Below, piece by piece: positions 19,206-51,153 of a stretch of DNA of 52,064 bases. This DNA is from Thermoproteota archaeon (GTDB lineage: Archaea; Thermoproteota; Methanomethylicia; Methanomethylicales; Methanomethylicaceae), in assembly GCA_004348015.1 (NCBI GenBank), contig QNVI01000061.1, positions 26,371-78,434 on the forward strand, read 5' to 3'. The notes beneath the pieces are model-generated. The model was not told the origin of the DNA and did no database searches. It saw nothing but the letters and a program-made list of their open reading frames with translations. Positions within the stretch are counted from its first letter, which is position 1. Each line of letters begins with the position of its first letter. Both the position numbers and the translations under genes were made by a program.

Positions 19206-20114
19206 TTATGCGAAGAATGACTCTGGTAATATCTTAATAAGTATATAATCTCTCATTAATGATTTGTTTATATTAGCAATTTCTATAAGTTTTTTTCCCT
19301 CAATTTCCATAGATGCAATTTTATCTTTATATTCATTATATGGAAGTTTTACTCTTATTCCATCTATTTTTAATGTTACAGGATTAGGAGAAAGTACTTC
19401 ATTAACTTCAGGTATTTGTCTTTCTATTTCCTTTTTTACTAATGCAGGTTCAACTATCAATGGATCTAAATCCATCTCTCTTCTTCTTTTTTCTGCAATT
19501 TTTCCTAAAAATTCAGAAATTTCATTGAGCTTATTTATCATATCCATTGTTCTAGCTCTTTCACTAAATCTTCCAACCCCTCCAATATAACCATTAACAT
19601 TTGGAAGAATTAATTTATCAGGTTTACCTGTTACTACAATAGGGATTGAAATATCATTAAATAATTTACTTTTAAATTTTGAAATACAGTATTCAAAATT
19701 TCCTAGTACAAATAATGCTATATCATGTTCCTCTATTAATAATCTTTCTTCTTTTGTTATATGTGCTATTTTTTGACCAACACCTCTTGCTAATCCTATA
19801 ATATTTGTCTTTGCACCATGTCTTCTCAAATTTTCTGCAATATCACAAACTGGATGTGGTAGATGGTGTCTTGATAAGCTAGGTGCGACAACAGCTATTT
19901 CAGTACCAATAAGTGGTGCTTCTCTTATCTTTCCTTTAAGTTCTATTACTAATTTATTTAAATTATCAAATTCTTCTTCAGGAATTGCTAAATGCATTAT
20001 TACATCTAATCCTACTATATTCTTTTGTATTAAATATCCTCCAATATCTTCTACAAATTCTATTAATTTTTCATGTTTGTATGTTCCTCCTTCAAATACA
20101 ATATACTTTAACAT
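19206..20114 (-). CDS. methanogenesis marker protein 7
   Basis: A 302-residue protein matching marker 7: N-terminal FEGGTYKHEKLIEFVEDIGG, the central APSLSRHHLPHPVCDIAENLRR with its cysteine, and LARGVGQKIAHI, NFEYCISKF and VTGKPDKLILPNV. Marker 7 is found in the purified MCR activation complex, where conserved cysteines take part in iron-sulfur cluster binding (family knowledge). Its ATG overlaps the marker 17 stop (TAATG) and the atwA-like gene follows after 9 bases. Confidence 0.88.
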   Translation of the reverse strand: MLKYIVFEGGTYKHEKLIEFVEDIGGYLIQKNIVGLDVIMHLAIPEEEFDNLNKLVIELKGKIREAPLIGTEIAVVAPSLSRHHLPHPVCDIAENLRRHGAKTNIIGLARGVGQKIAHITKEERLLIEEHDIALFVLGNFEYCISKFKSKLFNDISIPIVVTGKPDKLILPNVNGYIGGVGRFSERARTMDMINKLNEISEFLGKIAEKRRREMDLDPLIVEPALVKKEIERQIPEVNEVLSPNPVTLKIDGIRVKLPYNEYKDKIASMEIEGKKLIEIANINKSLMRDYILIKILPESFFA

Positions 20115-20665
20115 TATTCCTCTACCTTAATTTCATGAGCTTTTCTAATCCATTCTTCTTTTATTGGATCTTCTGAAGCAATAACTATAAGCGTATCTCC
20201 TTCTTTTATAGTATGTCTAACTCTAAAACCTTCAGGAAGTATTCTATTTATCAATTCTATTATTCTTTCTGAAATATCTATTTCCTTTTCTCTTATCCTG
20301 ATTTCCTTAATTTCATTAATATCAATATTTCTTGCTAGTATTTCAAGTCTACCAATCTGTTCAACTTTATCTCTTCCAAATCTACTCCATAAAGCTCTCA
20401 AAGCATCTGTTACATCAATTTCATTTTTTAATATTATTTTTGTATTATTTGCTACTTCTTCAAACCTTGCTAAATCTTTGAGTAAATTTTTTCTTTCTAA
20501 TTCTTTATAATTTATTTTTAATATAACTAATGGAATTTCTAGATCTAAATACAAATATATCCAGTTAATATTTCCTCCTAATATTAAATCTTCAATACTC
20601 TGTTCTATTATTTTCATATAAGCTTCTTTTCCTTTTTCATCATTTGTATCTACTATTATCTTAAT
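20114..20665 (-). CDS. methanogenesis marker protein 17, probable ATT start
   Basis: The first ATG (20617) would give 167 residues, but the frame is open for 16 further codons upstream without any ATG, GTG or TTG. They read [ATT]KIIVDTNDEKGKEAY, a natural beta-strand/helix start that restores 183 residues, about the usual marker 17 length. An ATT at 20665-20663 sits 9 bases after AGGAGG (and 7 after GGAG) of a very strong ribosome site. The downstream ATG has no comparable site. I therefore annotate initiation at ATT. The protein has no cysteine and is a component of the MCR activation complex in the literature. It overlaps marker 6 by 5 bases and marker 7 by 1. Confidence 0.8.
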   Translation of the reverse strand: MKIIVDTNDEKGKEAYMKIIEQSIEDLILGGNINWIYLYLDLEIPLVILKINYKELERKNLLKDLARFEEVANNTKIILKNEIDVTDALRALWSRFGRDKVEQIGRLEILARNIDINEIKEIRIREKEIDISERIIELINRILPEGFRVRHTIKEGDTLIVIASEDPIKEEWIRKAHEIKVEE

Positions 20666-22564: not shown

Positions 22565-22622
22565 TTTTTCACCAAATAAATTTATTTGAGTTTTTACTAA
22601 TATTTATAAATTGGTGCTTTAT
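22565..22622. promoter_or_regulatory. shared divergent promoter of the marker 3 operon and mcrDC
   Basis: An AT-rich spacer containing the near-palindromic AATTTATAAA-like box (TATTTATAAA at 22601-22610), readable as TATA on either strand, and AAATAAATTTATTT at 22573-22586. One compact region thus seems to drive both MCR accessory operons, which would keep McrC/D and the activation-complex markers in step. Confidence 0.5.
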
Positions 22623-22973
22623 TTGAGTAATGAAATACCACCTGAAATTGAAATAATGCCAAGAAAACTTATGTCAAGGAATAAAGCTGAAGATTTAATA
22701 CATCTAATTAAGGATACCGGATTGGTTAAAGAAGTATTAATTCAAAAACATAGATATTCAGATGGAAGTTACTTAGTTGGTCGTTTTATTTTAATTATTA
22801 ATGTAAATTCTCCAGAAGAAGTTATAAATAAGATAAAGCCTATATGTGATCAAATGATGCCATATGGTTATGATATAAGAATTGGCCGATTTGTTAAACT
22901 AAGACCTACAGTATCAGACTATATTAGAGGTGATTATTACTGGATAAGATCATTGGAAGAAGTGCGCAAATAA
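22623..22973 (+). CDS. mcrD: MCR operon protein D
   Basis: McrD binds MCR and assists its maturation. Recognised by EIEIMPRKLMSRNKAEDLI at the N-terminus, VGRFILIIN, and the diagnostic MPYGYDIRIGRFVKLRPTVSDYIRG at the C-terminus (shown as YGYDIRIGRFVKLRPTVSDY). I prefer TTG 22623, six bases after GGTG; TTG 22611 or GTG 22614 would add three or four residues. The gene is 116 residues, short for the family. Its last 34 bases overlap the extended mcrC frame and contain the mcrC ribosome site. Confidence 0.9.
   Translation: MSNEIPPEIEIMPRKLMSRNKAEDLIHLIKDTGLVKEVLIQKHRYSDGSYLVGRFILIINVNSPEEVINKIKPICDQMMPYGYDIRIGRFVKLRPTVSDYIRGDYYWIRSLEEVRK
22926..22934 (+). promoter_or_regulatory. ribosome-binding site of mcrC inside mcrD
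   Basis: AGAGGTGAT matches the archaeal ideal GGAGGTGAT at 8 of 9 bases. It lies inside the mcrD coding sequence (codons for RGD) and is 5 bases before a CTG in the mcrC frame at 22940. No ATG, GTG or TTG follows in that frame for 130 bases, so this site decides the unusual start of mcrC. Confidence 0.7.
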
Positions 22974-23581
22974 TTGATTGTAGAGAAACTCAAGGCATTG
23001 GAGAAGGTGGAGGTTTAGCTCAAAGAGGTACAATATCAGAAACTGAGCGTTTTGATGTTATTGCAATAGCAATGTCTCCATCTAAAAGACATATTACTAG
23101 ACCAGTATGTGAAATTACATATGGTCTAAGAGAACAGGGAATTAGGACTGGTGTAATTGTATTGGAATCTGGATCAGGAGTACCTCCAGATTCTCCATAT
23201 GGAGGTGCTCCTGGAGGATCTATGGCTGGAATAAATGAAAAAGAAATCCTTCAAATAAGAAGATTTAAATTAGCTTTACTTCATCTTGGTGGAATTTTAG
23301 GTCATGTTGTTTATAAAGCAAAAACATTTCTTCGTTATGTTGATATACCTGTAATAGTAGCATGCGAAGCACCAGTTGATTATGAAGATTTTGCTAAAGT
23401 TGGAATAATAACAAGAATAGTTCGTCCCCCTCCAGATAAAGTCGAATGTTTTGGTATTATAGTAGATATAGTCACTGGTATAATAAGAGGAGTAAGTATA
23501 CCAAGAGATAAATTAAATGAGATCATCATAAAAGTAAAATATTGGTTGAATGAAATAGAGAAAGGAAAATTGGTGTATTAA
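22940..23581 (+). CDS. mcrC: MCR operon protein C, probable CTG start
   Basis: McrC is part of the MCR activation complex. The first in-frame ATG (23072) would remove the most conserved part. Upstream the frame reads DKIIGRSAQIIDCRETQGIGEGGG (in pieces: IIGRSAQIIDC, RETQGIGEGGGLAQRGT), which aligns with the ordinary McrC N-terminus (M-I-G-x...VDCRETxGxGEGGG). No canonical start exists between the TGA at 22931 and 23072. CTG 22940 has ideal spacing from AGAGGTGAT; ATC 22949 or ATT 22952 are alternatives that align better with homologue ends. Further motifs: SPSKRHITRPVCEITYGLRE and VACEAPVDYEDFAKVG. It is followed after 1 base by marker 5. Confidence 0.88.
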   Translation: MDKIIGRSAQIIDCRETQGIGEGGGLAQRGTISETERFDVIAIAMSPSKRHITRPVCEITYGLREQGIRTGVIVLESGSGVPPDSPYGGAPGGSMAGINEKEILQIRRFKLALLHLGGILGHVVYKAKTFLRYVDIPVIVACEAPVDYEDFAKVGIITRIVRPPPDKVECFGIIVDIVTGIIRGVSIPRDKLNEIIIKVKYWLNEIEKGKLVY

Positions 23582-23582
23582 T

Positions 23583-24020
23583 ATGGCAAAAGTATTCATA
23601 CATCCACCAAATAGTGTTATACTTTTTGATCTTGTAAGAAGATTTGGACATACTCCACTAGGATTAGGAGAAGAAGTTTCCAAAAATGTAAATAAACCTG
23701 AAATTGACTCCCCTCCTATGAATATCACTCCTGATTTTCCAAGAAGAGGCTTAAAATATGCTGCTATAGAAGTTCCATCTGGTGTAAGAGGCAGACTAGC
23801 ACTTATGGGTCCATTAATTGAAGAAGCAGATGCTGCTATAATTATTGAAGATCCTGAAATTGGTTTTGGTTGTACAAGTTGTGCAAGAACTAATGAATTT
23901 TTGATATATTTAGTAAAACAAAGAAAAATTCCTTACATAACTGTTCCATATCCTTCTTCTGAAGAAGAAGCAAGAATAATGGTTCAAAAAATAAAAAATT
24001 TTCTTTTATCTTTAAAATAA
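23583..24020 (+). CDS. methanogenesis marker protein 5
   Basis: A 145-residue protein fitting marker 5: MAKVFIHPPNSVILFDLVRRFGHTPLG at the start (shown as AKVFIHPPNSVILFDLV) and GFGCTSCARTNEF near residue 97, a CxxC pair that could bind a metal or cluster. The C-terminal half looks like an alpha-beta domain. Start ATG 23583 is one base after the mcrC stop. It completes mcrD - mcrC - marker 5 and meets the convergent 78-residue orphan with no gap. Confidence 0.87.
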   Translation: MAKVFIHPPNSVILFDLVRRFGHTPLGLGEEVSKNVNKPEIDSPPMNITPDFPRRGLKYAAIEVPSGVRGRLALMGPLIEEADAAIIIEDPEIGFGCTSCARTNEFLIYLVKQRKIPYITVPYPSSEEEARIMVQKIKNFLLSLK

Positions 24021-50112: not shown

Positions 50113-51153
50113 CTACTTAATTATAAGTTTTCTTAAACCCAACCAACTCATTAATATTAATAATGCACTAAAATAAAACATAATAATATAATTAATATTC
50201 CATAATATGAATGCAATAAAAGGTCCAAATATAGAAATTATAAAAGAATTTCTAGAAAATTTATATTCACTAAATAATTTCTTATTTCTATTTAAAATAG
50301 CTATAAAAGAATTTAAAAAACTTAAGTCAATTAATATGAATATCCATAATAGAGTAAATATGAAAATATTATTTACAAATCCTATTAGTAATAAAGAAAG
50401 AAATAATGAGATAATTAATAATCTTCCCAATCCTTCTTGAATAATCTTTCTTTTGTTTATTTGCCATCCTATTATATGAGTAATTATTAATGAAGTTGTT
50501 AATACTATTCCTATTTTTATAATATCAATACCTATTATCTCTAATGCTATTATAGGAAGAAAAATTGTTCCTATACTTCCTCCTAATCCAATTCCTATAG
50601 ATATCAACCATCCTTCTAATTTAAAGCTCTTTATTTCATCTTCAGGGATTTTTGGTTTTGCTACTATTATTTTAAGTGAAAATATTAAAAATACAGAAAG
50701 AATTAATGCTAATATTCCTGAAATTAATAATAATCTATCTACTTCATAAAAATAAATAATAAAAGCTCCTATAAGTGGAAATAAAGAAAAGATAATAAGT
50801 TTTGATAAGTTAAGAACTACATAAGAAGGTAGTGAAAGTAATCCTCCAATTGAAATTCCTAATAATAAAGAAAATAATATTGAGAAATATCCATAACCAT
50901 ATGATAAGAAAAGAATAGTAGTAATAACATATGAAGTTAGAAAAATACCAGTAATTCTAGATAATGAGGTTTTAGATTTATTATAATAGTTATTACCTAT
51001 AAAAAATCCGGTATAATATGTAACAAGAGAAATACTTGTTATAAATAAATCTTGAATTCTCATCCACAATATCAATACTATTAAATAATGAAGAATTCCA
51101 GCTATTGGAAATGTAAGTGATAAAATAAATTTAAATAACTTTAAATAATCTAT
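50113..51153 (-). CDS. MFS-like transporter, possible ATA start
   Basis: A membrane protein with about ten to eleven hydrophobic helices. Canonical starts in frame (TTG 51075, ATG 51063) lie in or after the first helix, so that helix would be lost. The frame extends upstream to ATA 51153: [ATA]DYLKLFKFILSLTFPIAG then ILHYLIVLILW, a natural first membrane span. GGAGGGA (51161-51167) lies 8 bases before this ATA. An ATGATG at the same site opens another frame that stops after nine codons. Alternatives are a +1 frameshift or a homopolymer sequencing error. Substrate unknown. Confidence 0.65.
   Translation of the reverse strand: MDYLKLFKFILSLTFPIAGILHYLIVLILWMRIQDLFITSISLVTYYTGFFIGNNYYNKSKTSLSRITGIFLTSYVITTILFLSYGYGYFSILFSLLLGISIGGLLSLPSYVVLNLSKLIIFSLFPLIGAFIIYFYEVDRLLLISGILALILSVFLIFSLKIIVAKPKIPEDEIKSFKLEGWLISIGIGLGGSIGTIFLPIIALEIIGIDIIKIGIVLTTSLIITHIIGWQINKRKIIQEGLGRLLIISLFLSLLLIGFVNNIFIFTLLWIFILIDLSFLNSFIAILNRNKKLFSEYKFSRNSFIISIFGPFIAFILWNINYIIMFYFSALLILMSWLGLRKLIIK

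Follow-up and report, generated by a model that had tools for sequence, protein, structure and literature searches.

In this archaeon, mcrC, whose product is required for activation of the methane-making enzyme, lacks at the beginning of its conserved frame each of the three start codons that annotation tools usually accept. The window (the whole stretch of DNA that was analyzed, 52,064 nucleotides) is part of contig C58 of a 1.12-Mb draft genome, G000, which comprises 69 contigs and whose relatives belong to Candidatus Methanomethylicota. The family, Methanomethylicaceae, comprises methanogenic Thermoproteota that have been cultured barely or not at all, and the genomes compared in this study include metagenome-assembled ones.

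Position of the mcrC start codon

The gene context supports the assignment of mcrC, with mcrD upstream, mmp5 downstream, and mmp3 and mmp17 nearby on the other strand. The relevant features are as follows.

22623..22973, plus strand: mcrD, with a probable TTG start (PF02505, 52.7 bits; start in G007 aligned)
22927..22934, plus strand: Shine-Dalgarno (SD) sequence GAGGTGAT, an 8-nt match whose aligned AGGAGG core ends 9 nt before the CTG
22940..23581, plus strand: mcrC coding sequence with the proposed CTG start, 213 amino acids (TIGR03264, PF04609; homologous start codon in 19 relatives)
22940..22942, plus strand: predicted CTG initiation codon of mcrC (the aligned codon is CTG in G001 and TTG in 18 further genomes of the family)
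23072..23074, plus strand: ATG, the first canonical in-frame codon of mcrC, rejected as the start
23583..24020, plus strand: mmp5 (methanogenesis marker 5), directly 3′ of mcrC (TIGR03271, PF09885)

For mcrD itself, TTG 22623, which follows GGTG, is a more likely start than TTG 22611, from which the frame is open but which overlaps the SD site (window positions 22611 to 22640).

Upstream of mcrC, its frame is closed by TAG at 22925 and by TGA at 22931 to 22933, after which the codons run TTA TTA CTG (22940) GAT AAG ATC (22949) ATT (22952) GGA AGA AGT GCG CAA ATA ATT GAT TGT AGA GAA ACT. The original prediction held that no ATG, GTG, or TTG occurs from this TGA to ATG 23072 although the McrC N terminus is encoded in frame, and both its coordinates and its reading of the protein proved right. 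In a profile search, the CTG-initiated protein scores 276.2 bits against TIGR03264 (cutoff, 213.5), covering model positions 1 to 192 of 194, with model position 1 pairing with residue 6, and it also matches PF04609. Because TIGR03264 aligns from its first position, the 44 codons preceding ATG 23072 represent conserved McrC sequence, and the whole family profile is encoded in frame. A start at ATG 23072 was consequently rejected, as it would drop these 44 conserved residues, and no canonical codon is able to supply the conserved N terminus.

The sequence AGAGGTGAT is located at 22926 to 22934, upstream of the CTG, and the GAGGTGAT within it fits the SD consensus AGGAGGTGATC, as read from the 16S rRNA 3′ end of the sister species G001 (GGATCACCTCCT, the source of the anti-SD sequence). 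To provide a spacing reference, 346 ATG genes of this genus (g1) were scanned and those with an SD match of at least 5 nt were used; the distance from the AGGAGG core to the ATG peaks at 7 to 9 nt. The CTG of mcrC, which is one base from ATG, thus lies at a normal spacing of 9 nt.

The mcrD-mcrC junction, extracted and aligned from 26 genomes, bears directly on the choice of codon. In G001, the second species of g1 (94% protein identity), the corresponding mcrC codon is likewise CTG and is preceded by the same GAGGTGAT, and the draft assemblies of G000 and G001 are the only genomes in which CTG occupies the mcrC start. All 18 further family genomes, representing six other genera, have TTG exactly at the codon corresponding to 22940 without alignment gaps. 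In about 7 of these 18 relatives TTG is the sole canonical codon between the stop of the frame and the mcrC start, while several others have a further in-frame ATG or GTG no more than 4 codons before the TTG. As CTG makes up 0.05% of codons in conserved G001 genes, its presence at this spot in both species by chance is unlikely. The alignment that the original prediction had called for found the same non-AUG codon in a sister species, TTG in 18 relatives, and no normal ATG at that point. The proposed initiation at CTG 22940 is supported by SD spacing and by both sets of relatives, and on these comparative grounds mcrC almost certainly initiates at this codon in g1. By parsimony, we infer that TTG was the ancestral mcrC start of the family and that the change was from TTG to CTG.

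The mcrD-mcrC overlap and competing readings of the start

The mcrD and mcrC frames overlap by 34 to 42 nt in g1 and in its sister genus, g7, whereas in the other genera mcrD ends 1 to 41 nt before the TTG of mcrC. Two features of the window define this overlap.

22940..22973, plus strand: mcrD/mcrC overlap, 34 nt (substitutions between G000 and G001: 3 of 3 silent in mcrC and 3 of 3 changing mcrD)
22938..22943, plus strand: mcrD codons TAC-TGG (Tyr-Trp) over the mcrC start, by computed phase; TAT-TGG in g7

In this phase, the mcrC start shares its first base with a tyrosine codon of mcrD: A or G at 22940 converts that codon to TAA or TAG, while T or C keeps tyrosine. Since a purine would generate an mcrD stop, ATG and GTG are closed at the mcrC start in g1 and g7, and because of the shared base only TTG or CTG remains open; replacing TTG with CTG leaves the McrD protein unaltered. 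The three differences between G000 and G001 from the CTG to the mcrD stop are those listed above, and upstream of the CTG most differences are silent in mcrD; albeit on small numbers, the switch in the frame under selection coincides with the CTG.

It is proposed that in the g1/g7 ancestor mcrD grew 34 nt into mcrC, such that the first base of the start became the third base of a TAY codon before TGG. Purines at that base would truncate McrD, leaving TTG and CTG open, and a silent T-to-C change in mcrD would then have given mcrC its CTG in g1. This CTG is predicted to be translated, positioned by GAGGTGAT within the 3′ end of mcrD, presumably by the methionyl initiator tRNA. The overlap is, on the evidence of code and phase, probably the cause of the CTG; the argument covers the exclusion of ATG and GTG in g1 and g7, not the retention of TTG in genera where the genes do not overlap. 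Taken as a whole, an explanation combining a CTG 22940 start, an ancestral TTG, and a choice of codon restricted by mcrD is considered very likely to be correct. The pair would represent a clear natural case in which the better start codons are denied to a gene by its overlapping neighbor, with TTG and CTG as the sole options.

A weak start might instead have been selected to hold McrC low relative to McrD. Such a role would be in keeping with the retention of TTG, which is also weak, in six genera even where no overlap forces it, and with the status of McrC as an accessory subunit copurifying in the MCR activation complex (PMC12176620), whose partners encoded by mmp17 and mmp3 also have weak starts here. 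Against it, g1 joins the CTG to a stronger SD match (8 nt, versus 4 to 5 nt in g7), which would offset the weaker start; this pairing agrees with a report that stronger SD sequences accompany non-AUG starts in prokaryotes (PMC5622118). Furthermore, mcrD leaves neither ATG nor GTG available in g1, and with TTG ancestral in the family the overlap accounts for the CTG change without recourse to dosage; selection for low McrC is thus regarded as unlikely. RNA structure hiding the mcrC start was also considered and rejected, since it is weak and differs among G000, G001, and G007, and an Rfam search found no match in the mcrC leader.

The exact position of the start has a further candidate in ATC 22949 or ATT 22952. 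The original prediction placed these codons at the usual protein end, and both indeed align with the ATG of distant methanogens, that of Methanomicrobiales McrC being close to this position; ATT starts also seem to be used elsewhere in the family, namely, in mmp17 and hel308. Nevertheless, the two codons lie 18 and 21 nt from the SD core, in contrast to the 7 to 9 nt of ATG genes, and the codon at 22952 varies among ATT, ATC, ATA, ATG, and CTG in family genomes while that at 22940 stays TTG. As residues align gap-free from 22940 onward, a start at either codon is judged highly improbable compared with one at CTG 22940.

Production of McrC by ribosomal frameshifting out of mcrD, with no separate initiation, would find its opportunity in the overlap of g1 and g7, but it has next to no likelihood, as the genes are separated elsewhere and fusion is thus not the ancestral mode, no slippery heptamer was noticed in the overlap when read by eye, and an SD sequence and a start-like codon are present at the right spacing; a programmed fusion, for which overlap in all members and a slippery site would be expected, was rejected accordingly. 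A sequencing or assembly error masking TTG or ATG is scarcely credible, even in a draft of 69 contigs, given that the second species, whose surrounding sequence differs at other bases, shares this CTG and that two other genes have CTG starts common to both species; the earlier view that an indel is an unlikely explanation is strengthened by this second, independent assembly, which excludes it in practice.

Near-cognate starts elsewhere in the family

A census of start codons was performed on 650 kb of G001, 725 kb of G007, 788 kb of G002, and the 78-kb contig of G000, accepting starts that were defined by a homologous canonical start and by SD spacing, provided that the stretch between the preceding stop and +12 contained no further canonical codon. 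Among 336 unambiguous SD-supported starts, ATG accounted for 237, TTG for 75, GTG for 14, CTG for 5, ATA for 3, and ACG and ACA for 1 each, corresponding to a near-cognate share of approximately 3% in the family genomes of the census. In seven of the eight distinct genes with noncanonical starts, the start codon differs from ATG by a single base (binomial P of ~1e-5), and in four of the eight it is CTG (P of ~3e-12), both values being rough, with codon frequencies taken from G001 only. Two further TTG-to-CTG start changes were evident in g1, in an acetolactate synthase-like gene and in the KEOPS gene pcc1, both species having CTG and g7 having TTG; CTG is also present in pcc1 of two Methanosuratincola genomes. 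CTG was additionally observed at SD spacing in fen1 of G002 (C6, minus strand, 645785 to 646823), for which G001 and G007 have ATG, and in a short gene of G007 (C1, minus strand, 127034 to 127679), for which G001 has TTG.

Two more genes of the window have candidate near-cognate starts.

20114..20665, minus strand: mmp17 (methanogenesis marker 17), proposed ATT start at 20665-20663 (TIGR03291 and PF09886 cover residues before ATG 20617)
50113..51153, minus strand: predicted membrane protein, likely ATA start at 51153-51151 (GGAGG 9 nt before the ATA, likewise in G001; homologous GTG in G007)

Of 15 family genomes, 10 have ATT at the mmp17 start codon, 4 have ATG, and 1 has TTG, and in the window the ATT overlaps the upstream stop as ATTAA. 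For hel308, 12 family genomes were compared, of which 10, across six genera, have ATT and the remaining 2 have TTG; among the other Thermoproteota that were sampled outside the order, the majority carry ATG or TTG there. In the archaeal glmU (TIGR03992), the start codon reads ACG in ten genomes, which represent five genera, and ATG in another five genomes, with rival candidates close to the site in two genomes (an ATT before the ACG in G000 and an ATG two codons before it in G011).

A separate pattern was observed in a PaaK-like ligase gene (L255 to L269), which has no canonical start in g1. In all 15 genomes, a GGAGG-type motif is followed by TTT and then ACA, ACT, or ACC, and a comparable motif, GGAGGA-TTTAG-TTTA, recurs farther upstream; the hisS gene of G007 (C2:156440) has the same arrangement with TTC ACA. 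The Rfam search of the PaaK leaders likewise found no match.

Changes to the initiation machinery were considered as a cause and rejected. The factor aIF1 is reported to discriminate against noncanonical starts (PMC8211752 and PMC6237735), and its loss is contradicted by the presence of SUI1 in both g1 genomes and in 22 of 22 genomes that are at least 90% complete. The initiator tRNA of G001 looks normal, with a CAT anticodon, A1-U72, and a GGG/CCC anticodon stem; its gene (L072:1247-1338) contains a short intron of ~14 nt after position 37. The aIF5B (IF2-like) gene is interrupted at its conserved GGITQHIG motif, where a stop occurs and the frame changes (G001:C6, about 225873 to 227703, L078; G007:C1, minus strand; G002:C6, about 672438). 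In G001 and G007, a bulge-helix-bulge fold is formed by its RNA, and dropping 22 nt would give VGAMTQHIG, so that the break is likely a mini-intron in a protein-coding gene. A radical-SAM (PflA-like) gene (G001:C6, 343716 to 344390) and its G007 homolog, in which the frame stops after GEEPEIVPS and the remainder lies in another frame, possibly harbor another mini-intron, the local hairpin showing compensating base differences between the two genera. A glutamine synthetase-related gene, identified by reading of the sequence (G001:C6, 49551 to 49856), is frame-broken in G001 and intact in G007 and G002.

These data raise the possibility, which we consider evenly balanced, that Methanomethylicaceae routinely start conserved genes at CTG, ATT, ATA, or ACG with a strong SD sequence, some of these starts (ATT in hel308 and mmp17, ACG in glmU) being kept across at least five genera, and that start selection is more permissive in this family than the ATG/GTG/TTG rule of annotation programs or that weak starts are regulatory. 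McrC and Mmp17 are both members of the MCR activation complex (PMC12176620), and this activation machinery is hit by gene start miscalls from tools limited to ATG, GTG, and TTG, by which McrC would lose 44 residues and Mmp17 would lose 16. The literature searched, the scope of which left out most subscription journals, yielded no report of near-cognate starts in this lineage. Should they be confirmed, the conserved ACG and ATT starts would offer a comparative handle on start discrimination by archaeal ribosomes, involving aIF1, aIF2, and the SD sequence.

Comparison with known systems

The bacterial infC gene has a conserved AUU start and is autoregulated through discrimination by IF3. The ATT of hel308 and mmp17 is alike in being a near-cognate start kept over long divergence, whereas the IF3 autoregulation is a property of infC, the two archaeal genes being likened to it by start codon alone. 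With respect to the rare CUG starts of prokaryotes, a count based on annotated starts found that 1 of 2,468 ancestral UUG starts became CUG in related prokaryotes (PMC5622118). The present case is similar in the replacement of UUG by CUG and in the importance of the SD sequence for non-AUG starts; it differs in that three genes of one genus appear to have switched and in that the mcrC switch is silent in an overlapping gene.

Coupled unidirectional overlaps offer a further parallel (PMC10666635), as mcrD and mcrC run in the same direction and the ATTAA of mmp17 fits the 5-nt overlap predicted for ATT starts, whereas the 34 nt shared by mcrD and mcrC greatly exceed the usual overlaps of 4 nt and 1 nt and belong to the rarer phase (-7, -10, -13 ...). 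Finally, SD-led initiation with normal archaeal factors, as described in a review of archaeal initiation (PMC7531240), is consistent with the presence of aIF1 and a normal-looking initiator tRNA in these genomes; that review gives AUG, GUG, and UUG as start codons, whereas CUG, AUU, AUA, and ACG starts are implied here.
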